Shown here one piece after another: positions 1,829-14,930 of a stretch of 64,000 bases of DNA. The notes beneath the pieces are model-generated. The model was not told the origin of the DNA. It was given only the letters and a program-made list of their open reading frames with translations, and made no database searches. This DNA comes from Candidatus Nanohaloarchaea archaeon. GTDB taxonomy: Archaea > Nanohalarchaeota > Nanosalinia > Nanosalinales > Nanosalinaceae. The stretch lies in NCBI GenBank assembly GCA_014297435.1, contig JACOQA010000003.1, positions 1 through 64,000 of the forward strand, written 5' to 3'. Both the position numbers and the translations under genes were made by a program. Position 1 is the first letter of the stretch; each line of letters starts with the position of its first letter.

Positions 1829-2874
1829 TCCTCGCCTACTTTCACCATTACTTTGATTGCCTCTCTGTTGTCCATTGCGTCGTAGCCTTCCGGAATTCCT
1901 TCAAGATCTACAACTTTATTCAGGACCGGTGAAGGATCAAGTGTTCCCTGCAGAACATCTTCCATCAGTTCTTCGAGATAGTTTCTGACAGGTGCGGGAC
2001 CTCCTTCAAACCTTACATTCTTGAAGAACATCTGGTTGACAAAGTCAGCGGACTCAAGGTGTGGAACACCTACGTAACCAATATTTCCGCCAGGTCTTAC
2101 AATCTGGGCTGCTGTGTTCAGAGCGGACTCAGCTCCAACACATTCCAGAACATGGTTTGCTCCTCCATTTGTAAGTTCCATCACTTCTTCCACTGCTTCT
2201 TCTCCCTTTGAAGAAACTACATCAGTTGCGCCCATTTCCTTAGCTACCTCGAGTCTGTCCTCGTGGTGACCTACTGCTATAATTCTTTCTGCTCCCAGCC
2301 TTTTGGATGCGGCTACAGCACAGAGACCTACTGCTCCATCTCCGATAACAACAGCTGTATCACCTTCTTCTACGTTGGCACAGACTGCTGCGTGATGTCC
2401 TGTCCCCATCACATCTGTGAGTGGAAGTAGTTTCTTCAGGACTTCTTCGTTGTCCTCATATCTTTCTGGGACTTTAACGAGAGTGCCGTCTGCCTGAGGG
2501 ATTCGAAGTTTTTCTGCCTGTGCGCCCCCTAATGTTCCGTTTGGACTGTAGAATTCGGATTTCTTACAGGAAGTATAGATTCCTTTACGGCAGAACTCAC
2601 ACTCTCCACAACTGGTTGAGAACGGCGAAATGACTCGATCACCTTCCTCCAGAGAGGTTACATCCTCTCCGACTTCTTCCACAATACCCATCGGCTCATG
2701 TCCTGTCTGGGAACCTTCCTCCGGGTCATCATACTCTCTGTAATACCAGAGATCCGATCCACAGATACATGTATGCGTTACACGGATAACGACATCTTCA
2801 GGATTTTCGATTTCAGGATCTTCAATATCTTCAACTCTAATATCGCCTTCGCCGTAATAAACTGCTGACTTCAT
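1825..2874 (-). CDS. Zinc-dependent alcohol dehydrogenase (MDR family)
   Basis: Medium-chain NAD(P)-dependent dehydrogenase of 349 residues, the normal family length. The N-terminal catalytic domain carries CICGSDLWYYR (first zinc ligand) and GHEPMG. A four-cysteine structural zinc loop follows (CGECEFCRKGIYTSC). The Rossmann domain has GDGAVG near residue 178. The substrate alcohol or aldehyde cannot be read from sequence. ATG start; a TATA-like TTTAAC lies about 30 bases upstream, fitting a leaderless or short-leader message. It stands alone between a convergent copper ATPase and the broken kinase-like gene. Confidence 0.9.
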   Translation of the reverse strand: MKSAVYYGEGDIRVEDIEDPEIENPEDVVIRVTHTCICGSDLWYYREYDDPEEGSQTGHEPMGIVEEVGEDVTSLEEGDRVISPFSTSCGECEFCRKGIYTSCKKSEFYSPNGTLGGAQAEKLRIPQADGTLVKVPERYEDNEEVLKKLLPLTDVMGTGHHAAVCANVEEGDTAVVIGDGAVGLCAVAASKRLGAERIIAVGHHEDRLEVAKEMGATDVVSSKGEEAVEEVMELTNGGANHVLECVGAESALNTAAQIVRPGGNIGYVGVPHLESADFVNQMFFKNVRFEGGPAPVRNYLEELMEDVLQGTLDPSPVLNKVVDLEGIPEGYDAMDNREAIKVMVKVGEE

Positions 2875-2962
2875 AGAATAATGAATTTTTTCTCAAAATG
2901 TTAAAGCTATCGAAACAAACCGCATTTAGAAAAATATTCACAGCATAGCCCCTTTCTGAGTC

Positions 2963-2995
2963 TTGAAGGATTACTTCAACATCTCACACTGAGAT
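2963..2995. repeat. Two tandem perfect short hairpins
   Basis: TTGAAG-gatta-CTTCAA (2963-2979) is followed at once by ATCTCA-cac-TGAGAT (2981-2995), each with six perfect pairs. They lie in the 171-base gap between the start of the alcohol dehydrogenase and the end of the kinase-like gene. Their place could serve as a terminator for the minus-strand kinase-like transcript or as protein-binding sites upstream of the dehydrogenase promoter. Confidence 0.4.
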
Positions 2996-3045
2996 TACGG
3001 TGAAAACCCCGAGAGGTATAATATCTGTTCGAGCAGACAAATTTT

Positions 3046-4049
3046 TTAGTTTCTACTGTGAAGATTGTCTAAAATTTCTCTTGTTCTGTTCTTGATTACT
3101 TCTTCAGTGTTCGGACTTTTCTCGGAATGAAAAGCCATTTCCAGAACCATAGGATATAGAAGATATAACCATCTTCTCTCCTCCCAACCATCTTCCAGCT
3201 CCCTTACATTCTCATACCCTTTATACAGCTCTCTCCTGTATTTTTCCCATACACTGTCTGTGCTGAAGCTGTGTGCTATCATTCTTCCTTCTGTTGTCAC
3301 CAGGTCAAATTCTCCGTGTCCAGCTACACAAGCCTCCCAGTCCAGAATCGCTGCAAGCTCGCCATCTTCAACAAGTATATTCTTCGTATCAACCTCCCTG
3401 TGAACCAAGACAGGTGTTTCAACATCTTCTATCAGGTTAAGATTGTTTCCAACGGCTTCCGTTATTTCAGAAACCAACTCATCGAACTGCCCTCCTTCAA
3501 CTTGGTCAATCCAGAATAAAATCATATTCCTGAATAACTTAGACCAACCATCAACTTTCTCAACTGTCAATTTCTCATTTTCAACTCTAACCTCTCCGAA
3601 ATCCTCGAACTGTATCTGATGGAGTTTTGAGATATTTTCTCCCACTTGATGCAAAATCCGTTTCTTCTTGTTTTCTCCTAAATTTCTAAATGCGGGTTTA
3701 GAAGAGCTTTCTGCAGGAGCGTAGCCTTTCATCTTTCGCAGTATGTGATAGTATTCGGGTATGGTAGACTTCGAAGTATCTCTTGCAACACATTCGGGAA
3801 CAGGAATGTCAGATTTCTGATAAATTAAATCCAGCACATAAGGCTCAGTTTCAAAGCGAGCATACCAGTCTTGGTTCTGCTTCTCAACTAAGTCAGCTAA
3901 ACCGTTATTTTCAATACAAAGCTCTCTTCTTCAAAATCTATAAAGAAGGTGTCGTGTGCAAAACCTCCTTCTGCAGGGTAAATATCTACATTTTCTCTAT
4001 TTGGAAACTTCTTCTTTGCAACTTTTTCAGCCATTTCCAAGGATTCCAT
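3046..4049 (-). pseudogene. Aminoglycoside phosphotransferase (APH)-family kinase, frameshifted
   Basis: The large downstream frame (3046-3837, read from an in-frame GTG) has the APH/choline-kinase signature: catalytic loop VHREVDTKNILVEDG and metal-binding ILDWEACVAGHGEFD. Upstream, an ATG at 4047-4049 opens another frame coding MESLEMAEKVAKKKFPNREN and GGFAHDTFFIDFEEESFVLKI, the N-lobe expected for the family, and stops at TAG around 3900. Shifting frame by one base in AATAACGG near 3908-3914 joins the pieces as VLKI-NGLADLVEKQ. The full protein would be about 334 residues. Either a real one-base deletion inactivated the gene or the assembly has an error. Substrate unknown; members phosphorylate small molecules or sugars. 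Confidence 0.8.
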
Positions 4050-4098
4050 AGACGTTAGTTTCTGTTGCAAAAATAAAAATTGAAAGTTAGGATTAGAA

Positions 4099-4113
4099 AG
4101 CCCATACCGGGCT
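4099..4113 (-). terminator. Hairpin downstream of tRNA-Thr
   Basis: AGCCC-atacc-GGGCT forms a five-pair hairpin 20 bases past the 3' end of tRNA-Thr. On the minus strand it is followed some 25 bases later by a T-rich stretch around 4064-4083. Its position suits termination of the tRNA transcript. Confidence 0.4.
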
Positions 4114-4133
4114 CTTGAAGCTATCCTTTATAA

Positions 4134-4208
4134 AGCCCCCGGAGGGATTTGAACCCTCGGCCTGCCCCTTACAAGGGGGCCGCTCTAGCCAGACTGAGCC
4201 ACGGAGGC
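4134..4208 (-). tRNA. tRNA-Thr(UGU)
   Basis: 75 nt. Acceptor GCCTCCG pairs with CGGGGGC (one G-U), the anticodon stem GCCCC/GGGGC closes a loop with TGT, and the T arm is GAGGG-TTCAAAT-CCCTC. No intron and no encoded CCA. A TATA-like TTTATAC sits about 15-25 bases upstream on the minus strand (around 4220). Confidence 0.96.
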
Positions 4209-4266
4209 ATTTCTCTGTATAAAATGATAGGCTGCCTAAACAGTTAAATAAAGGGATGCCGACTCC

Positions 4267-4725
4267 TCAGAAAAGAGACGAGATAAAACCTATTATACCT
4301 GAAAGTAACCCCTTAGGGTTTCCTTCGTCATTTTCTTCTGCTGTCTGGTTTCCAGTAGCAATTGATTCGGAATCATTCAAAGATACTTCACGGACAGTCC
4401 CTCCGTATTTCTCGGGGCTGATCTCGATTTCACCGTAAATTTCTGCGTCAGGATCTTCACATACCCAGGTATCTCTTCCGGAAGCCCTCATGAAGTTTCC
4501 ATCTTTCTCGTTACATGCTTCTCTAGGTGTTTTCTCCCAGCACTGGTCGCTGAACTTTTCTGCTTCTGCAGGACAGCTACAGCTCGAGTTAACTACCTCT
4601 CCGCCAGAGTTTTTGCATTCGGATTTCCAGGTTGTAAGCTCTCCCTCGTATTTTTGGAGCTGTGCGCCGGAAAAACTGGCTAAAAACAGCAAATAGAAAG
4701 CTAAAACTATCAAGGAATTCTTCAT
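4267..4725 (-). CDS. Small secreted cysteine-containing protein
   Basis: About 152 residues from the ATG at 4725; a TTG ten codons earlier is possible but the ATG opens directly into a signal peptide (MKNSLIVLAFYLLFLASFSG). The mature part has six cysteines in three clusters (ECKNSGG, SCSCP, QCWEKT / ACNEK / VCEDP), suggesting disulfides outside the cell. The C terminus is hydrophobic (GLLSGIIGFISSLF) and may anchor it. No family recognised. It diverges from the membrane protein at 4787 across a short shared promoter region. Confidence 0.65.
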   Translation of the reverse strand: MKNSLIVLAFYLLFLASFSGAQLQKYEGELTTWKSECKNSGGEVVNSSCSCPAEAEKFSDQCWEKTPREACNEKDGNFMRASGRDTWVCEDPDAEIYGEIEISPEKYGGTVREVSLNDSESIATGNQTAEENDEGNPKGLLSGIIGFISSLF

Positions 4726-4786
4726 AACGTTAGGATCGTTCTCCACTATTTTCAAGCTTTTCGGAACCCTGATTTTTTAGCCGAAA

Positions 4787-5668
4787 ATGTTTTCAAAATC
4801 TTTGAAACCTTTCTATACCATGGATAAGGCGGTGGTCGGCGGCCTGATCTTTGTATTCCTGATATTTCTGCTTCCTGTACTCTTGGTTTGGCAACCTGAC
4901 CTAGAGTCAGATAGACCTCAAGATACCGGAACCGAGCCGGTTCTACCCGGTGAAATCAGGAAGGCTTCGAACCAGGATGTAAGGATTACTTCTATGCAGT
5001 GGGTCAAGGTCCCTGCTGACTTCGAGACAGCTAACCTTGAAAGAAACACGAACTGGGCGGGGGAGAGACTTCTGGACAACAACTCCCGGTTAAACGTTAC
5101 GGTAAAGAATACGGGAGAACAATCTTTGGATCCTTACGGCGTTGAACCTGTCGATCAGGGCGAGTCATTTACCATTAGCTTTGTTAATGCAGGTCCCAGC
5201 GACGATCTTTTCGTTGATTATCAGGGCGGCGAGGAAAATAATCTGGAGTTTGAAGCCCCTGAGTTCAGGAAGAATCCGGGCGGTATTTCTTATACTGAGG
5301 GCTTTGTTAGAGTGCCCGTGCCGTGTGATTCGGACGGAGACCAAGACGAACAGGAGTATCATACTATGGTGGACGTGGATCTGGAAAGCTCTACAGGTAT
5401 TAAAACCAAGTTGGAAGGTTCCGGAAGTATTGATAACTCCGAGTTCAGTCTTTCGGCAGAAGTTATTTCGGCAAAGAGTGAGACCGAACACGTGCCAAGT
5501 CGGGGCGAGTTCACTGTCCAAGTGGCTTTAGACACGGTGTGTAAGAATGTTGATATGGGTGTGAGACGTGCTAACTTGAGTATGGATCTTGAGTACGCTG
5601 ACGGTGCTTATACGGATGTAAGAGTTCCTTTGGAGATTGGTTTTGGCGATATATTCTACGACTACTAG
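4787..5668 (+). CDS. Membrane-anchored extracellular protein of unknown function
   Basis: 293 residues. One N-terminal membrane segment (about residues 15-35, VVGGLIFVFLIFLLPVLLVW) is followed by an acidic extracellular domain rich in beta-type sequence. It has two cysteines (PVPCDSDGD, DTVCKN) that could form a disulfide. An internal ATG at 4820 is an alternative start. No family recognised; the architecture is of a surface-exposed, membrane-tethered protein. It heads a plus-strand group with the small cysteine protein at 5752 and the DUF502 protein at 5895. Confidence 0.7.
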   Translation: MFSKSLKPFYTMDKAVVGGLIFVFLIFLLPVLLVWQPDLESDRPQDTGTEPVLPGEIRKASNQDVRITSMQWVKVPADFETANLERNTNWAGERLLDNNSRLNVTVKNTGEQSLDPYGVEPVDQGESFTISFVNAGPSDDLFVDYQGGEENNLEFEAPEFRKNPGGISYTEGFVRVPVPCDSDGDQDEQEYHTMVDVDLESSTGIKTKLEGSGSIDNSEFSLSAEVISAKSETEHVPSRGEFTVQVALDTVCKNVDMGVRRANLSMDLEYADGAYTDVRVPLEIGFGDIFYDY

Positions 5669-6824: not shown

Positions 6825-7892
6825 CTAACGGAATAAGCTGAGAAGCTTAAGCTTCAACTTTTTCTTCCTCAAAATGTAATAGTATCTTATCCTTACCAGG
6901 TCTTTGAGTTTTCTGAACCATTTTGATCTGTACGCCTTTTCCCCGTACTCCAGCATTCCGTCTTCGCCCATAGAAATGAGTATTGCCGGGAACTTTTCCT
7001 CGAACCCTTCCAGGTTCTCTGCCTCACCTTTCTCAATGTTTTTAGCTATGGTTTCTGCCTGGTTCATAGCGTTGTGAGCCGTCTTCATCACATCGAGATC
7101 GGCACAGTCCCCCGCAGCGAAGACGTTCGAATATTTCTGGGAACAAAGCCCTTTGTTGACTTCTAACCCGTTTTTAACTGTTTCAAAGTCTCTCTGAACA
7201 AGTTTCGATGCCTGTATACCTGTTGTCCAGATTACTATATCGGCTTCTACTTTTCCGCCGTTCTCAAGAATGGCAGAATGTCGTTCAACAGTTTCAACGT
7301 TTTTGTCTCCTCGGAAAACAATATCGTTTTCGTTCATGTAGTCTAGGGCTATTTCCGAAGCACCTATATTAGCGTTTACCATAGGTCTTGTCGCTACATC
7401 AAGCACCTCGACCTCCAAGCCTTTTTCTCTGAGTTCGGAAGCCACTTCAAGACCTACATAACCTGAGCCGATTACTAGTGCGGATTCTGATTCTTCCAGT
7501 CTTTGGTCGATCCTTTTTGCATCGGACAATCTGTAACATGTCTCAACCTTTCCTATGTCTGTTCCGAAGGTGTTCGGTTCTCCGCCTAAACCTAGTACGA
7601 GGTAGTCGTAGTTGTAGGCGCTTGAGTCGGTTTCGACCCTGTCCTCTTCCGGGATAAACCCGGTTACCTTCTCATCTGAAAACTTTACAGAAGTGTCTTC
7701 CAAGAACTCTTCCAGGTTTAATTCTAGTTTCTGGCTTGAGACTCGATCGCGGAAGATGTCTATTAGTCCGGGGGTGTATTCATGTTGTTTTTCCTTGTCG
7801 AGAAGCTCTACTTCGTATCCTTTTGCGGCTAGTTTCAGTGCTGCGTTGAGTCCAAAGAATCCTGCACCCGTGATTACTACTTTCTCCGGCAT
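6825..7892 (-). CDS. NAD(P)/FAD-dependent oxidoreductase (NDH-2-like)
   Basis: 355 residues from the ATG at 7892 (a TTG one codon earlier is also in frame). The FAD-binding GAGFFGLNAALKLAAKG is N-terminal, a second Rossmann motif VIGSGYVGLEVASELREKG lies near residue 148 for NAD(P), and FAAGDCADLD closes the FAD site. The redox CxxC of disulfide reductases is absent, which fits type II NADH dehydrogenase or related quinone reductases. The C-terminal tail is basic and aromatic (VRIRYYYILRKKKLKLK), suitable for peripheral membrane attachment. Electron acceptor not determinable. Confidence 0.85.
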   Translation of the reverse strand: MPEKVVITGAGFFGLNAALKLAAKGYEVELLDKEKQHEYTPGLIDIFRDRVSSQKLELNLEEFLEDTSVKFSDEKVTGFIPEEDRVETDSSAYNYDYLVLGLGGEPNTFGTDIGKVETCYRLSDAKRIDQRLEESESALVIGSGYVGLEVASELREKGLEVEVLDVATRPMVNANIGASEIALDYMNENDIVFRGDKNVETVERHSAILENGGKVEADIVIWTTGIQASKLVQRDFETVKNGLEVNKGLCSQKYSNVFAAGDCADLDVMKTAHNAMNQAETIAKNIEKGEAENLEGFEEKFPAILISMGEDGMLEYGEKAYRSKWFRKLKDLVRIRYYYILRKKKLKLKLLSLFR

Positions 7893-8006
7893 CAACAGAG
7901 TTTTCGTTGAGTTGGGTTAAAAAATATCTGCCTCTATGGATTGGTTTAAAAGACTTGGAGAAAACCTGTTTCTATACGTACTCGAAAGCAGTTTTTGTTT
8001 CAGTTT

Positions 8007-8079
8007 GGCGGGATGGTGTAGTGGACTATCATCGGACCTTTGGGAGGTCTGGACCCCGGTTCAAATCCGGGTCCTGCCA
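8007..8079 (+). tRNA. tRNA-Pro(UGG)
   Basis: 73 nt. Acceptor GGCGGGA/TCCTGCC, anticodon stem GGACC/GGTCT with loop TTTGGGA (anticodon TGG, G37), T arm CCCGG-TTCAAAT-CCGGG. No intron, no encoded CCA. Confidence 0.97.
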
Positions 8080-8399
8080 TTCTACTAATGATTCAAAGGC
8101 ACCAAAAGATACACGGTGTATAATAAACAAAGTTCTCAGGAATACTTGCCAGTTTTCATAGAACAGATTTCGATTGCAGACCGTCTTTTTTGACCACTAT
8201 CAAGTAGACTTCTATTGGTTTGTGAGGATTACGTACTTTAAGATACGCTCACCTTTTTTAGATGGTTGAATAGTTGAAGTTCACCCTGTGAGATCATTAT
8301 TAGAAATGAAAGGAGAAGTTAAGAGGCGGTAAATAACGTGAAAACTCCGGATACGTGCAAAGAAGTGGTAAAAAAGTAAAAATACCTTAAAACTTATTC
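8080..8399. other. Gene-free 320-base stretch after tRNA-Pro
   Basis: No convincing reading frame. Two T runs (CTTTTTTG near 8185 and CCTTTTTTAG near 8254) could end the tRNA-Pro transcript. The stretch separates the tRNA from the accessory-looking genes at 8.4-9.8 kb. No duplicate of the tRNA 3' end was found nearby by eye. Confidence 0.5.
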
Positions 8400-8672
8400 T
8401 TATTCCTCTGTCAGGATATTTTTGATCCATGCCGCCTGCTTGCTTCCAAGTCCCTCGCCATGATCAGCCATTCCGTGCACGTATCCTAGGAATCCCCCTA
8501 TAAGAATTCCGACTGCCGCACCCTCCCCACCGGAGGCTGCGCCACCTATGGCTCCCCCCGCAGTTCCGTACTCCGCCATCAGTACAGGTTCGGCATATAC
8601 CGACGGCTCGGTTAATGGGTTTGTGTAAGTATCCGATTCATCTTGATTATAATCGTGGTTGCCTGCACTCAC
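8400..8672 (-). CDS. Glycine-zipper small membrane protein
   Basis: 90 residues from a GTG start. A TATA-like TTTAAGTA lies about 28 bases upstream, so the message is probably leaderless. The central part is a glycine/alanine zipper (GTAGGAIGGAASGGEGAAVG, then ILIGGFLGYVHG), a membrane-inserting pattern seen in class II bacteriocins and in glycine-zipper channel-forming or lipoprotein-like proteins. There is no classical signal peptide; the first 35 residues are acidic and polar. Similarity is to the pattern only, not to a recognised family. It diverges from the DNA-hypermodification-type gene at 8838. Confidence 0.6.
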   Translation of the reverse strand: MSAGNHDYNQDESDTYTNPLTEPSVYAEPVLMAEYGTAGGAIGGAASGGEGAAVGILIGGFLGYVHGMADHGEGLGSKQAAWIKNILTEE

Positions 8673-8768
8673 ATTATGTAGTTATTCAGCAGTACTTAAA
8701 ATAATTTTTGCCGGCCAAGGATCTAAGTTTTAAAGGAGTTTAGATACCGACACCCCCACAACACCATA

Positions 8769-8834
8769 AAAATATACTTAATAACTATATCGCCATCTAT
8801 CACCATGAATTATAATTCTATACATTCAAATTAA
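8769..8834 (+). promoter_or_regulatory. TATA box and nine-codon upstream ORF
   Basis: AAAATATACTTA (about 8769-8780) is a good archaeal TATA element. The base 25 downstream of it falls at an ATG (8805) opening a nine-codon frame that ends in TAA at 8832-8834, three bases before the ATG of the 8838 gene and in the same frame. A leaderless transcript would therefore start on this mini-ORF. Confidence 0.4.
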
Positions 8835-8837
8835 TTT

Positions 8838-9815
8838 ATGGCGTCTAAACAGTTCATGGATCTTGATTCAGATCCTGTAAACGAATTCTGGAACTTTATA
8901 GCAGAAAGACAGTCCATATGGCACAAACGAGTAATAGAACAACAGGACTACCCCTGGACCGATAATGAAATACTCAAAAATTACAGATTTACCAACGTCT
9001 ACCGAGAATTGGACCCAGGAACCCAGTACGCTATACAGAACATAATGATTAGAGATGAATCTAGAAAAGACAGAACATTCAACATCATGATATACCGCTT
9101 GCTCGGTAGAAAGGAAACTCACGAACGACTAGACTTCCGGAGTTCGGAGGATTTTGATCCTGAAGGCTTCGAGAGAGTATTGAAGAAACGGCGCGAGTCA
9201 GGAAAGCCTGTTTTTACCGGGGCTTACATGGTAAGCGGTTACAGCCAGTTTGATTCATCCGACAAAGTCGAAAATATTTCGGAGATCTTTAAAAGAATCT
9301 CCCAAGATTTCGATGAGACGTTTGAGACAATTGATTCCGCGCAAAGCCCCCAAGAAGTCTACAACATAATTAATTCGCTTCCAGGCTTCGGCAACTTCCT
9401 TTCCTACCAGGTATTAGTCGACCTACTTTACGATCTAGGCGAAGAACCTTCAGTCATAGAGTTCAACCATAACGAGTGGGCTAAGCCCGGACCGGGTGCG
9501 AAGAAAGGTCTCAAAGTTCTCGCAGAGAATCCGGGACCTGATGAACGTTTGGAGATTATGAGATGGCTTACAGAGAACCAAGAGTCCGAGTTTAGAGATA
9601 GAGGGATCGATTTCAACTACCTAAAAGATACCGAAGGACGTAGAAGGTTGCTTTCGCTGGCTGATATCCAGAACTGTCTCTGTGAGTTCTACAAGTTCCA
9701 CAAGATCAAGAACGACAAGGGACGGGCGAGAAGGAAGTTCAGGTCTTCCAACTCCAGAGGCAACTCCAACCTGAGAAAGATCTACAAAGAGGCGCCTAAA
9801 ATAAGTCTGAAATAG
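8838..9815 (+). CDS. 5-hmdU DNA kinase / glutamyl-putrescinyl thymine pyrophosphorylase family protein
   Basis: 325 residues with the signature of the helical family predicted to act on 5-hydroxymethyluracil in DNA, known mainly from phages with hypermodified thymine. Seen here: FWNFIAERQSIWHKR, PWTDNEILKNYRFTNVYREL, YMVSGYS, LPGFGNFLSYQVLVDLL and the conserved EWAKPGPGAKKGL. Family members are thought to activate hydroxymethyluracil bases for later substitution by amines or amino acids. No partner enzymes (hydroxymethylase, transferase) lie next to it; the neighbour is a glycine-zipper peptide. The basic C terminus (ARRKFRSSNSR) would suit DNA binding. Family assignment strong; a role in this cell is inference. 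Confidence 0.85.
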   Translation: MASKQFMDLDSDPVNEFWNFIAERQSIWHKRVIEQQDYPWTDNEILKNYRFTNVYRELDPGTQYAIQNIMIRDESRKDRTFNIMIYRLLGRKETHERLDFRSSEDFDPEGFERVLKKRRESGKPVFTGAYMVSGYSQFDSSDKVENISEIFKRISQDFDETFETIDSAQSPQEVYNIINSLPGFGNFLSYQVLVDLLYDLGEEPSVIEFNHNEWAKPGPGAKKGLKVLAENPGPDERLEIMRWLTENQESEFRDRGIDFNYLKDTEGRRRLLSLADIQNCLCEFYKFHKIKNDKGRARRKFRSSNSRGNSNLRKIYKEAPKISLK

Positions 9816-9863
9816 GTACCTGATCCGTCCAGTTGTCCCGAGTCCTGTTGAGATTAAAAAACT

Positions 9864-9880
9864 AGAACTCTTAGAGTTCT
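9864..9880. promoter_or_regulatory. Inverted repeat at transporter start, likely operator
   Basis: AGAACTC-tta-GAGTTCT is a perfect 7+3+7 inverted repeat ending three bases before the transporter ATG (9884). A TATA-like GATTAAAAAAC lies at 9852-9862, so the repeat covers the expected transcription start, where a repressor would bind. Confidence 0.5.
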
Positions 9881-9883
9881 TTC

Positions 9884-10660
9884 ATGGAGATGAAGCCCAC
9901 CCGTGACGTCCTGGAATCTATGATAGATAAAGGAAAGCACGAGCTGAATAGAGGTGGCGACGGACTCTTCCTATCAGGGCTTTCTGCCGGACTCGATATA
10001 GGTTTCGGTCCATTACTGATGGCTGTTATACTGACCCTTTCAACCGGTAGCTACAGCGACCTAGGAACAGAGCTGTTGCTCGCAAGCGCCTACTCGGTAG
10101 GTTTCATCTTCGTAATCCTCGGCCGATCTGAACTCTTCACAGAACATACTACATTAGCGGTGATGCCGGTTCTCGATGGTCAAGCGTCTATGAAGAAGCT
10201 CGGACGTCTCTAGAGCATCGTCTATGCAGGAAACATTCTGGGAGGTATATTCTTCGCAGGACTCGCAGTACTTCTCATGCCAGGACTTGAAGTTATAACA
10301 CCCGCCGCATTTGAGACTATCACATCCAAAATGGTGAGCCATGAACCCCTATGGCTACTTTTCGCTTCAGTTTTTGCAGGCTGGCTAATGGGACTTTTGG
10401 CATGGCTGATAAGCGCGGCGCAGGAAACTTTAAGCCGGATAGTCATTATCCTCTTGGTTACTGCCACTATAGGTATACTACACCTCCCACACTCCATAGC
10501 TGGTAACGTCGAAGTACTTTTCGGACTGTTCGCCTCATCCAGTATCTCAGTAGTTGACTACCTTTCCTTCCTTGCTCTGGCGACTGTAGGCAATGCATTC
10601 GGAGGAGCCATATTCGTAGGATTAATGAAGTACAGCCATGTAGTCCGTGGCGCCAGGTAG
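9884..10660 (+). pseudogene. Formate/nitrite transporter (FNT) family, interrupted by one TAG
   Basis: A continuous 258-codon frame, normal for the pentameric FNT channel family, carries a single in-frame TAG at 10211-10213. The first part (residues 1-109) has GGDGLFLSGLSAGLDIGFGP and the conserved SELFTEHTTLAVMP. After the TAG the same frame continues SIVYAGNILGGIFFAGL and ends normally at TAG 10658-10660. The stop falls where relatives have tryptophan in a RLWxxVYxGN-type motif, so a TGG-to-TAG change explains it. The product would move formate, nitrite or a similar small anion. It could be a recent nonsense mutation, an assembly error or readthrough. Confidence 0.85.
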
Positions 10661-10740
10661 GCTTAAATCACTCCAAAAGATTCAAAGCTGAAGCCACCCA
10701 AAGAGACTTTATAAACGCTTTTTAGGCAGTATAAACTAGA

Positions 10741-11220
10741 ATGGATGTCTCCCTGCGCCGAGGAAAATGCAGTATCGATGAAGAAGAGATATCTATAGAT
10801 TCAAGTATCGACCGTTACATGAGGAATATACTTAGGTCGTGGCACGGACCTGTATGGAGTCTCATCCTCGCGGTCTACGTCCTGCCCGAACTTTTCTTAG
10901 GCTTCAACTCTGGAGTCGAGGAGGCTCTCTTTGCGCTCCTCGAGGTTTCAGTCTCGTTCCTCATCTTCATTTTGGGAATGTACATATTACGGTTCAGGCA
11001 GTTCTCCAGATCGAAGAAGTACCTAATCAAGAAGGAAGATGTAAACAGGATCAGCTCCAAGGTCGCTTTGAACTCAGAGACATGGTTTGTCAGAGAGATG
11101 TTCGAGATCCACTACACCGAAGATGGAAAAGACAAAAGCGTGACCATCATGCCTCTGAAAGGCGAAAAAGAAAAGCTCTCAGAAGCTTTAAACCGGATGG
11201 AATATCCTCTGGAAGACTAA
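10741..11220 (+). CDS. Two-helix membrane protein with PH-like C-terminal domain
   Basis: 159 residues. Two membrane segments (about residues 37-55 and 66-88) are followed by a domain beginning RQFSRSKKYLIKKEDVNRIS that resembles bacterial/archaeal PH-like membrane proteins by pattern only. A TATA box CTTTATAAACG lies about 30 bases upstream. Function unknown. Convergent with the secreted acidic protein at 11249. Confidence 0.65.
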   Translation: MDVSLRRGKCSIDEEEISIDSSIDRYMRNILRSWHGPVWSLILAVYVLPELFLGFNSGVEEALFALLEVSVSFLIFILGMYILRFRQFSRSKKYLIKKEDVNRISSKVALNSETWFVREMFEIHYTEDGKDKSVTIMPLKGEKEKLSEALNRMEYPLED

Positions 11221-11248
11221 GTATCTAAAATAAAAAAATAAAGGGAAT

Positions 11249-12142
11249 TTAGCGGTTGATCTTCGCGACGAAGATTACTTCGGCGTGGTTATTGTCCTCA
11301 TCGGGTGTAACCGTAACTGTTCCATCAGAAAGCTCGTTCTCTCCGTAGGAACTGACCTGTCTGTTGAACGGGTCACCGCCGTCAGGTCTATCATCCCAGT
11401 ACTCGGTTACGCCTACAAATTCGACCTGTTCCGAGTCTTCACCTGAAACAGTCAAATTGCTGTATGTGTAGGTTCCGAACGGAAGATTATGGTACTCAGC
11501 GCATTCTGCATCGAGCATTCCATCACCTTCACGATACTCATCAGAAGTACCGATAAGATCGGCAACCTGATTCAAAGGCGTATCGAACCTGACCGGGTTA
11601 GAATCATCGTACTCCGAAACACCTTCGGAAATGTTAGTGTCGACAGAGAGCTCTACGTTGACTGATTCTCCTGTGATTACTTGATCTCTTTGGTTCAAAA
11701 GCACTGTACATACTTTGATGTCGCCGTGGTCGTTGATCGTGTCGTAGTTCAGGACATGGTCTCTCGGGTTCGGGTAAGAGATCCAGTTCTCTCCGACCGC
11801 TTCAGGTTCCGGTGCAGGTGTGACGTGTCTCTCTTCTATCTCTTCTTCAGACTGGTCTGTGTCTTCGGTTTCGTTGTCTCCATCATACTCTTCCGAGTTA
11901 CATGGACTGTCAACCCCTATGACACAGACTCCTGCTTCAGACTCGTTTTCGGGTTCCTCTTCTTCGGAGTCGTCGAAGAAGTCATCGTTCCAGAATTCTC
12001 CATCGTCCCAGAAATCGTCGTCTTCGGAATCAACCTGGTTCGATGAATCAAAATCACTGAAGTTGGAATCGAAGTTAATGAATGCAGAACTTGATGCAAT
12101 TAGACCTATTGTTGTAAGAGCCAATAATAGTTGTTTCTTCAA
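11249..12142 (-). CDS. Secreted acidic protein, paralogous leader with next gene
   Basis: 297 residues from a TTG start fixed by a strong GGAGGTG eight bases upstream. A signal peptide (MKKQLLLALTTIGLIASSSA) leads into a run of alternating acidic and aromatic residues (DDFWDDGEFWNDDFFDDSEE). A CVIGVDSPC pair follows, then a C-terminal beta-rich domain of about 150 residues that may form an Ig-like fold. No family recognised. The acidic-aromatic segment after the signal is shared with the protein at 12332. Likely secreted to the surface. Confidence 0.72.
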   Translation of the reverse strand: MKKQLLLALTTIGLIASSSAFINFDSNFSDFDSSNQVDSEDDDFWDDGEFWNDDFFDDSEEEEPENESEAGVCVIGVDSPCNSEEYDGDNETEDTDQSEEEIEERHVTPAPEPEAVGENWISYPNPRDHVLNYDTINDHGDIKVCTVLLNQRDQVITGESVNVELSVDTNISEGVSEYDDSNPVRFDTPLNQVADLIGTSDEYREGDGMLDAECAEYHNLPFGTYTYSNLTVSGEDSEQVEFVGVTEYWDDRPDGGDPFNRQVSSYGENELSDGTVTVTPDEDNNHAEVIFVAKINR

Positions 12143-12331
12143 AGTTTTTCACCTCCATTTGAACTTTTATAGGATTTTGGGGAAAGTACAATAAGTTCTG
12201 AAGCTTCCAGTGTTTAAACCGATTCTTTCAGAACCTAGATTCTCTCAAAAAACAAGGTTGAGAATTAAAACAAGCTTTGTATCCAGTAGAAGAAAATTTA
12301 AAGAAGGAAAGCCGGCATAAAACCAGCTCGA

Positions 12332-12763
12332 TTACTTTTCATCCTTATCTTCGTAATCGTCTTCCTTGCCCTCATTCTCATCCTCGTAGTCCTTCTCGTA
12401 GCTCTCTTCGTGTTTCTCATCTTCGTAGTCGTGTCCATCTTTACTGTAATCGGATTTCCTGTCAGAATCACTTTCATGTTTCTCAGATTTGTCGTAATCG
12501 CTGTCACTTGATTCCTTGTGGTACTCCTTGGAATCAGATTCCGAGTCTTTGTCGTAGCTGGAATAGCTGTAACTTGAGGACTTCTCATACTCTCCTTTAT
12601 CACTGGAGCTGTACCAGTTATCATCGAAGAAGTCATCTTCGAAGAAATCTCCCTCAAAGTCGCCATCAAAGAAGTCTCCCTCGAAATCGAAGTCTTTGGT
12701 CGATGCTGCGACAGTTCCTACCATGCCTACTGCGATAAGACCTATCAGTATCTTTCTTTTCAA
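12332..12763 (-). CDS. Secreted hyperacidic Asp/Ser/Tyr-rich low-complexity protein
   Basis: About 143 residues. The TTG at 12763 is preferred over the GTG at 12772 because GAGGAGGTG then lies at proper spacing, exactly as in the neighbour at 12142. Signal peptide MKRKILIGLIAVGMVGTVAA is followed by repeats of the type GDFFDGDFEGDFFEDDFFDD, then a Ser/Tyr/Lys/Asp-rich low-complexity tail with no globular domain. The composition could bind cations or form a matrix; no family is recognised. It is cotranscribable with the gene at 11249 (gap about 190 bases). Confidence 0.7.
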   Translation of the reverse strand: MKRKILIGLIAVGMVGTVAASTKDFDFEGDFFDGDFEGDFFEDDFFDDNWYSSSDKGEYEKSSSYSYSSYDKDSESDSKEYHKESSDSDYDKSEKHESDSDRKSDYSKDGHDYEDEKHEESYEKDYEDENEGKEDDYEDKDEK

Positions 12764-12962
12764 ATTGTTCACCTCCTCTATTTCCGGTTTTCCCGGCTCT
12801 ACTTCAGGTTTTGGTCAAAGTGGAGAACATGACGAGAAGGTGCTGCCTTACTTAAACGGTTTGTTTTAGGTCTTTAGAACCCTTAAACTCTGAAGAAAGG
12901 AAGAACAGAGAATCATTCTATTGAAAACAACCTATTTGAATGAAACTGGAAAACGCTTAGTC

Positions 12963-13640
12963 ATGAAACGTAAAATCGTAGCAGGCTTTATCGCAATATT
13001 ATGTTTGATAGCGCTTCCAGCTTTCCTTGAGCACTACTTGGCTTTGATGACAGGCAGAGTCAAAAACCTGGTAATAATACAGAGGCGCTGGGATCTAGTT
13101 GCTTTGAGCATAATAGGCTTTTTACTGTTCCTAATACCTTTAAGGTACAGACATAAAACCGACTGGAGCTCTTTCGGGATTTACACCGCATTTATAGTAT
13201 CTCTGTTTGTCGAAATGTATGGGATTCCCTTAACGCTCTACCTTACCTCTGGTCTGGGATCTACAACTCAGACGCCGGCATACATCTTCGAGTTCACAGC
13301 GCTTGGAATCTACTTCGGCCTAAACCTCTGGATGCTTATAGGACTTGGTATAACAGCCTTAGGAGCATTTATAGTTTCGATAGGATGGTACCAGCTCTAC
13401 ACAAGCGAAGAGAAACTCGTAACTTCAGGAGTTTACGCTTATTCTAGACATCCACAGTACATAGGTATTTCACTTATCGTTATAGGCTGGTTTATAGGCT
13501 GGCCTACACTTCTGACAACCCTGATGCTTCCGATACTACTGTTCGTTTATTATAGAGCAGCTTTGAAGGAAGAGGAAGAAGTCAAAAAGGAGGTAGAGGG
13601 CTATGAAGAGTACATGAATGAAGTTCCAAGATTCATCTAA
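12963..13640 (+). CDS. ICMT/PEMT-type membrane methyltransferase
   Basis: About 225 residues from the ATG at 12963; a TTG at 12921 in the same frame is possible. Five or so membrane helices precede the C-terminal signature YSRHPQYIGISLIVIG and KEEEEVKKEVEGYEEYMNEV. This is the SAM-binding pattern of isoprenylcysteine carboxyl methyltransferase and phospholipid N-methyltransferase relatives. It probably methylates a lipid or prenylated substrate in the membrane; which one cannot be told. Convergent with the channel-like gene at 13662. Confidence 0.82.
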   Translation: MKRKIVAGFIAILCLIALPAFLEHYLALMTGRVKNLVIIQRRWDLVALSIIGFLLFLIPLRYRHKTDWSSFGIYTAFIVSLFVEMYGIPLTLYLTSGLGSTTQTPAYIFEFTALGIYFGLNLWMLIGLGITALGAFIVSIGWYQLYTSEEKLVTSGVYAYSRHPQYIGISLIVIGWFIGWPTLLTTLMLPILLFVYYRAALKEEEEVKKEVEGYEEYMNEVPRFI

Positions 13641-13661
13641 GAATGAAAGAAAAAGGATTTT

Positions 13662-14387
13662 TTAGGATCCGGAAGTCCTTTCTCTTGCTTTGGAGCTCCA
13701 TCTCTCAATGTTCTCCGAGATGTAGTCCTTCGAACCCCAACCGAACCCTATGCCTAAAGCAAGCGCAATTCCGAGCGCCACGCCCCATGAAACTGCTCTG
13801 CCGAAGATGTAGAGAATTGTCACATCTACCGCCATAGTGTCGAGCCCTATCACTATCGCTGTGAAGTAGAGGAAGACTCTCACACCATCGGCGATAAACT
13901 CTGTATAACCAGTTCTTGTAGCGGTATCAGTTCTTTCGATTGCATCCCCTATCCAGTCAGCTAGGACAAAACCTAGGACGATAACCAGTACTCCTCCTAT
14001 AAATGCTGGGAGGTAAGTGAGCGCTACCGAGATCCACTGGGAAAGTAGTGGGATCGCCAACAAGTTTGCGGCGGCGAGGAAAGCCAAGCCGTAAATGAAC
14101 CATTTTACGAGTTTGCCGAAGAATCCGGCAACAGATGCTTCTGTACCGCCCATCTTATCACCTAATGGTGTCCCTAGAAGCTGTCTGTCCAGCTGGAATC
14201 GATCAACCATCTGTCTTACTATTCCTCCAACAAATCTTCCTACAACCCATCCGATTACAAGGATGATAAGTGCTCCAATAAGCTCGGGCAGGAAGCCTAA
14301 AGTCGTTGATACCGGTTCCTGTAACCAGGTCGGCAAGTCAGTTTCAAGACCGGCTCCCTGCTGCGCGACAAGATTTCTTAGAGCCAT
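13662..14387 (-). CDS. Mechanosensitive-channel-related membrane protein (conserved TM-helix repeat)
   Basis: 241 residues with about five helices. Two repeat units of the conserved TM-helix type are visible: FLPELIGALIILVIGWVVGR and YLPAFIGGVLVIVLGFVLAD, each followed by an amphipathic segment. A final glycine/alanine helix (ALGIALALGIGFGWGSKDY) resembles the pore-lining TM3 of MscS. The MscS beta domain is absent, so it may be a short osmotic channel or a scaffold. ATG start. Confidence 0.78.
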   Translation of the reverse strand: MALRNLVAQQGAGLETDLPTWLQEPVSTTLGFLPELIGALIILVIGWVVGRFVGGIVRQMVDRFQLDRQLLGTPLGDKMGGTEASVAGFFGKLVKWFIYGLAFLAAANLLAIPLLSQWISVALTYLPAFIGGVLVIVLGFVLADWIGDAIERTDTATRTGYTEFIADGVRVFLYFTAIVIGLDTMAVDVTILYIFGRAVSWGVALGIALALGIGFGWGSKDYISENIERWSSKARERTSGS

Positions 14388-14517
14388 GGATCGATCTTCA
14401 CCTCAAGCAAACCCTAGCTGATTACTTGTTAAAACCAAAACCATTCTAGAACACCAGTTTTCTACCACAGATCTGTTTTTAGCAACCATATGAGTAACGC
14501 TTAGAGGAGGTGGAAAA

Positions 14518-14778
14518 ATGGAACCAATAAAAATCGTGACCGAAGATCATTATCACCACATAATATTTAATGACCCTGATAAATTCGATACGATTAGAAC
14601 ACCCAAATGGGCAGATAACGCCTCCGACTCAGTTATAGAAGGAAGCGAAGTAAGAACCGGAAAGATGAAAGGAAGTGACGAATGGCAGACCGAGTCAGTA
14701 CTTGTTCCGAAAGATAAAGTGGACCAAGATAAGGCGGTCAATTTAGCAAAACAGATAGTTGAGAAGATTGAAAGTTGA
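14518..14778 (+). CDS. Small acidic protein of unknown function
   Basis: 86 residues with an excellent GGAGGTGG six bases before the ATG. The sequence starts MEPIKIVTEDHYHHIIFNDP and looks globular with a C-terminal helix; no family recognised. Its TGA stop (14776-14778) abuts the 3' end of the oppositely oriented tRNA-Ser with no spacer. Confidence 0.68.
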   Translation: MEPIKIVTEDHYHHIIFNDPDKFDTIRTPKWADNASDSVIEGSEVRTGKMKGSDEWQTESVLVPKDKVDQDKAVNLAKQIVEKIES

Positions 14779-14867
14779 CGCCGGCGCTCGGATTTGAACC
14801 GAGGAGGCCGCGTATGGGCCAGCAGATCTCGAATCTGCCGCGTTCAACCAGACTCTGCCACGCCGGC
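14779..14867 (-). tRNA. tRNA-Ser(CGA)
   Basis: 89 nt class II tRNA. Acceptor GCCGGCG/CGCCGGC, anticodon stem GCAGA/TCTGC with loop TTCGAGA (anticodon CGA), a long variable arm, T arm CTCGG-TTCAAAT-CCGAG, discriminator G. No intron. Confidence 0.96.
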
Positions 14868-14930
14868 AAACCTCTATAAAATGAAACTCAGGGAAAGCTT
14901 ATAATCATTCATCTCGGCCTTTCTTGTTGA

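Follow-up and report, generated by a model that had tools for sequence, protein, structure and literature searches.

The HMUDK_hel domain in phages and in cells

The domain that Pfam names HMUDK_hel ('5-hmdU DNA kinase, helical domain'; PF18723), and which some annotators label 'aGPT-Pplase1', is plentiful in phages, with relatives in 421 phage records. Among the closest described systems are those of the thymine-hypermodifying phages SP10, SBSphiC, Pam3 and Sonora, in which the domain is fused to, or encoded directly after, a P-loop kinase and is found mostly in a hypermodification-type cassette. SBSphiC has a protein of 636 aa with a P-loop in its first half and this domain as its second, while in Pam3 and Sonora its gene lies directly after a separate gene for an HMUDK-type kinase. 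The domains newly validated in defence systems tested in E. coli also include a thymidylate synthase and a 5-hydroxymethyluracil kinase domain (PMC13092281); these 5-hmdU kinase-containing systems possess the same or a same-named domain, the text of that study not separating the kinase from the helical part.

A comparison of the genes surrounding the domain reveals one domain with two lives. The viral copies are accompanied by genes for a kinase and a ThyA-like enzyme, in cassettes of the hypermodification type: in 59 viral loci there were 51 with a ThyA-like gene, 31 with an HMUDK kinase, 17 with aGPT-Pplase2 and none with TIR or Nmad2. The corresponding figures for 24 cellular loci were TIR 10, Nmad2 9, MazG 6, ThyA-like at least 6 and HMUDK kinase 0. 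Sequence patterns guided the choice of loci, and of the ten TIR cases three come from closely related haloarchaea, but the contrast is still wide. The viral genes thus belong to thymine-decorating pathways, whereas the cellular neighbours (ThsB-type TIR, SLATT, MazG, Nmad2, ThyA-like, XRE/ImmA-IrrE and peptidase genes) are of kinds typical of defence, and to judge from this gene content the cellular cassettes look antiviral. Among the cellular copies, two occur in longer reading frames that may represent domain fusions, one of 559 aa in the Myxococcales (L013:7308-8987) and one of 660 aa in the Verrucomicrobiales (L019:7935-9917).

The gene at 8838-9815

The window analysed here is a 64,000-nt stretch of a nanohaloarchaeal genome whose assembly comprises 998,768 nt in 15 contigs, the 28 genomes of the phylum spanning 0.5-1.2 Mb, and whose proteome is acidic (median pI 4.74). 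At 8838-9815 (+) it carries an intact gene for a protein of 325 aa that matches PF18723 over residues 14-293 with an E value of 1.7e-67, the 228 bits comparing with a curated cut-off of 25 bits and the match covering positions 4-277 of the 281 in the profile. It also matches the phage family PHROG 2396 (phrog_2396; E 3.5e-60). An earlier, sequence-only reading of this DNA had assigned the protein to a 5-hmdU kinase/thymine pyrophosphorylase group and had proposed a search with a PF18723-type profile. That search was positive and the family assignment stands, but the kinase does not: the protein contains no Walker A (P-loop) motif and therefore represents the helical partner of a kinase rather than the kinase itself, and no HMUDK-type kinase was detected in the readable contigs of the genome. 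The term 'kinase' comes from the fused phage enzyme, of which the 8838 protein corresponds to the helical domain only.

The reading frame is full length with typical coding statistics, and in an alignment of 43 sequences, the 8838 protein among them, it retains 16 of 16 invariant residues, the conserved set including R24, F51, N53, R56, D59, K143, D195, the GPG at 218-220, C282-E283 and K286. An AlphaFold2 model of the protein (pLDDT 90.6, pTM 0.90) has as its closest predicted-fold match the 5-hmdU DNA kinase of phage SP10 (TMq 0.83). The protein therefore resembles the copies of the thymine-hypermodifying phages both in its nearly full-length match to the profile and in predicted fold, but has neither the fused or preceding P-loop kinase nor the surrounding cassette. 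The nearest solved structure is the phage 5-PmdU glycinyltransferase gp46/PUGT (8z2n; E 6.8e-3, probability 1.0), and helix-hairpin-helix (HhH) DNA glycosylases are also among the closest PDB folds, so that a DNA-engaging, glycosylase-like fold is likely for the model. The relation to these solved folds would be a distant, superfamily-level one, as the PDB matches have E values of 7e-3 or weaker, TM-scores of only 0.3-0.5 and no more than 14% identity.

Affinity, origin and genomic setting

Among the 28 genomes of the phylum PF18723 was found solely in this one, and when a sample of 60 related genomes was searched with the 8838 protein, none but its own gave a match. In collections of genome contigs and viral contigs a single-sequence query gave nothing, and an alignment of three sequences gave matches. 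The five nearest relatives are all haloarchaeal, full-length and co-linear, with identities of 52-55%: they comprise plasmid copies from Haloarcula marina (55%) and Natronomonas gomsonensis (54%) and copies from Haloarchaeobius FL176, Haloferax gibbonsii and H. elongans (55%). A tree built from 56 sequences makes the 8838 protein sister to these five with support of 100/99, and the enclosing branch of 33 rows takes in all of the cellular copies together with just two viral rows, placing the protein within the cellular branch of the family and not a viral one. The best phage match has 34% identity and no viral contig exceeds 31%.

The gene lies, as had been noted from the sequence, close to a tRNA-Pro (TGG) gene at 8006-8080 (+). 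The latter adjoins a gene for an NDH-2-like FAD/NAD oxidoreductase at 6825-7895 (-), and this arrangement is common to four relatives. The relative G004 keeps the whole frame, in which NDH-2 and tRNA-Pro are followed by 5.8 kb of other genes and then by tRNA-Ser and the HAD and TtuA-like genes. The right border in the window is the conserved tRNA-Ser (CGA) gene at 14777-14868 (-). The interval between the two tRNA genes (8081-14776) is thus variable, since within the same borders G004 has a P-type ATPase and small genes and lacks HMUDK_hel.

It had also been suggested that the gene is a domesticated viral one, which would make it a thymine-hypermodification gene left behind by an integrated virus. 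The many phage relatives would accord with such an origin, as would the position beside a tRNA gene, a common site of integration, but the protein falls in a cellular, haloarchaeal clade with strong support, its closest viral sequence is far more distant than the haloarchaeal copies, and the 8081-14776 interval showed no integrase, no direct repeat of the tRNA-Pro end (which was specifically searched for) and no gene that could be recognised as viral. A viral origin is therefore improbable. It is probable instead that HMUDK_hel was gained laterally from a haloarchaeal-type donor into the variable interval, a direction of transfer that we infer. The haloarchaea are the group in which the hosts of nanohaloarchaeal symbionts are expected, and the copy in the window suggests that such a symbiont took one component of a cassette from them. 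The use of GC content as a means of dating the transfer was rejected: that of the gene is 44%, equal to that of the host genome, but in Haloarcula, too, the gene stands at only 42%, so that composition cannot date the event.

Several other features of the interval deserve mention. The next gene, at 9884-10660 (+), would encode a formate/nitrite transporter (PF01226, E 5.7e-48 when read through) and contains an in-frame TAG at 10211-10213, which may be a nonsense mutation, a sequencing error or a recoded stop. The neighbouring genes at 11252-12142 (-) and 12335-12772 (-) encode secreted-type, highly acidic proteins rich in D, E and S, without family match, which have in common a 35-nt repeat (80%) and are possibly paralogues. 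A PADLOC scan of 33 proteins from the window matched three families.

Cassettes of the cellular relatives

In four haloarchaeal loci (H. gibbonsii, H. elongans, Haloarchaeobius FL176 and the N. gomsonensis plasmid) a fixed operon lies divergent to HMUDK_hel and encodes a Zn-ribbon protein, a 191-aa protein here termed u191, a DUF4231/SLATT membrane protein with two helices, and a TIR protein of the ThsB type. The Haloarcula marina plasmid has a different set, in which HMUDK_hel is found with XRE, ImmA/IrrE and C1-peptidase genes and u191 and is followed by a dTMP-kinase-like gene, and a set resembling that of Haloarcula, with a dCTP-deaminase-like gene, is found in Rhizobium ruizarguesonis. 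The 8838 protein is like the HMUDK_hel products of the haloarchaeal cassettes in sequence, length and position in the tree, but its readable genome yielded none of their partners except a housekeeping dTMP kinase. Bacterial cassettes with ThsB-TIR, Nmad2, MazG or thymidylate synthase present the same domain in a cellular, defence-like context, but they are more distant, at about 30% identity, and have operonic partners, whereas the 8838 gene is solitary.

Partner genes and the question of hypermodification

Partner genes were sought with the partner proteins as queries in all readable contigs, about 4 kb of the assembly, spread over seven short contigs, being masked as N. None of TIR, SLATT, u191, Zn-ribbon, Nmad2/3, MazG/MazG_C, HMUDK kinase or aGPT-Pplase2 was found in the readable contigs, and of the divergent Zn-ribbon - u191 - SLATT - ThsB-TIR operon none of the four genes was detected there. 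The readable contigs have a single dTMP kinase and a single thymidylate synthase, both on contig C13. These were considered as a dedicated kinase and hydroxymethylase and rejected, as together with DHFR and GlyA they make up a housekeeping cluster. The same contig carries, at 2009-5659 (-) of locus L144, an ORF of 1216 aa for a Hel308-like helicase that, judged by eye, appears to hold an intein, the helicase being interrupted by sequence of splicing and homing-endonuclease type.

The sequence-only reading had called the gene one of hypermodification type and had proposed a scan for thymidylate hydroxymethylase and transferases. Neither was found in the readable contigs, and as a 5-hmdU kinase, a transferase and a second thymidylate synthase are all missing there, no phage-type pathway of dUMP hydroxymethylase, kinase and transferase is evident. 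That the 8838 protein helps to convert thymine in the archaeon's own DNA, as the fusion or proximity of the phage versions to a 5-hmdU DNA kinase might lead one to propose, is consequently extremely improbable. The proposal of a defence or competition module fares better, though in part: the cassettes of the cellular relatives support it for the family, but the lone gene is without partners, and because no partner gene is present in the readable contigs its role in defence is only a candidate one.

It must also be asked whether the gene is simply a vestige, left over from a cassette of several genes and now without function. Every typical partner is missing and the next gene carries an in-frame stop, both of which would fit such a reading, but the full-length frame, the complete set of invariant residues and the typical coding statistics do not, and a vestige is considered unlikely though by no means negligible. 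Somewhat better than evenly balanced, in our estimation, is the case for a gene that is intact but orphaned, derives from a defence cassette of haloarchaeal type, belongs to the cellular lineage of PF18723 and was laterally acquired.

The divergent glycine-rich peptide

Divergent from HMUDK_hel, at 8400-8672 (-), lies an ORF for an acidic, glycine-rich peptide of 90 aa that had been read as a bacteriocin-like membrane peptide. Its orientation is as described and it is coding by a dicodon test, with a score of 0.97 bits/codon against a maximum of 0.50 in 405 overlapping non-gene ORFs of the same genome. The family and the membrane character were not borne out: there is a glycine-zipper-like stretch, but the best Pfam scores, of about 14 bits, are below the cut-offs of 24-29, no homologue supports membership of a bacteriocin or glycine-zipper family, and the best hydropathy window is marginal with weak transmembrane propensity. 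No homologue was found in the 28 genomes of the phylum, in plasmids, in phage records or beside the haloarchaeal copies of HMUDK_hel, and since the peptide has none anywhere searched, its pairing with HMUDK_hel is unsupported; the two genes do not co-occur in relatives, an outcome that had been named beforehand as one that would refute the earlier reading.

The two genes could nevertheless be envisaged as a minimal unit in which HMUDK_hel is the sensor and the peptide a membrane effector. The divergent layout resembles that of the haloarchaeal HMUDK_hel/SLATT-TIR cassettes and the peptide passes the coding test, but neither a homologue nor a conserved pairing was found for it and its hydrophobicity is only marginal, and the existence of such a unit is very doubtful. 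Scarcely less doubtful is the fuller form of the proposal, that in a symbiont with a reduced genome this sensor of modified DNA and its membrane effector are a stripped-down version of the haloarchaeal five-gene cassette, the cassette in turn serving, on this view, to defend against viruses whose thymidine is modified.

A proposed role for HMUDK_hel

If the 8838 gene is an orphaned cassette component, a sequence of events may be proposed in which an HMUDK_hel lineage enters the variable tRNA-Pro/tRNA-Ser interval by lateral transfer from a haloarchaeal-type donor. The relatives of the protein are each one part of antiviral-looking cassettes in which the modification of nucleotides or bases is central. 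Three features point to recognition of a 5-hydroxymethyl-type thymidine: a fold like that of glycosylases, the association with a kinase in phages, and cellular partners from pyrimidine metabolism. HMUDK_hel would most likely be a DNA-binding protein of glycosylase fold that either recognises such modified thymidine in invading DNA or presents it to a P-loop NMP kinase during phosphorylation, the downstream response being carried out by partner (effector) proteins. As the partners are missing here, the 8838 protein may work unaided or make use of the housekeeping dTMP kinase, or it may be a retained fragment of a cassette.

The haloarchaeal cassette is a more interesting lead than the orphan gene itself. 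As a candidate defence system it is compact and open to test, and Haloferax is genetically tractable. The conserved five genes are found at L011:5413-8969 and also in L009, L010 and L004, and when compared with PADLOC the TIR protein matches the ThsB model and the SLATT protein the 2TM model, while u191 and the Zn-ribbon protein match nothing. The possibility that u191 is MazG-like was considered and is not supported (hhalign probability 0.2%, no Pfam match, and a poor AlphaFold2 model with pLDDT 44). Members of the u191 family at plasmid loci (L130, L191, L192, L193, L194 and L003) likewise have no Pfam or PADLOC match; HMUDK_hel is nearby in five of the seven plasmid records with u191, and in the other two a uracil-DNA glycosylase gene adjoins u191.
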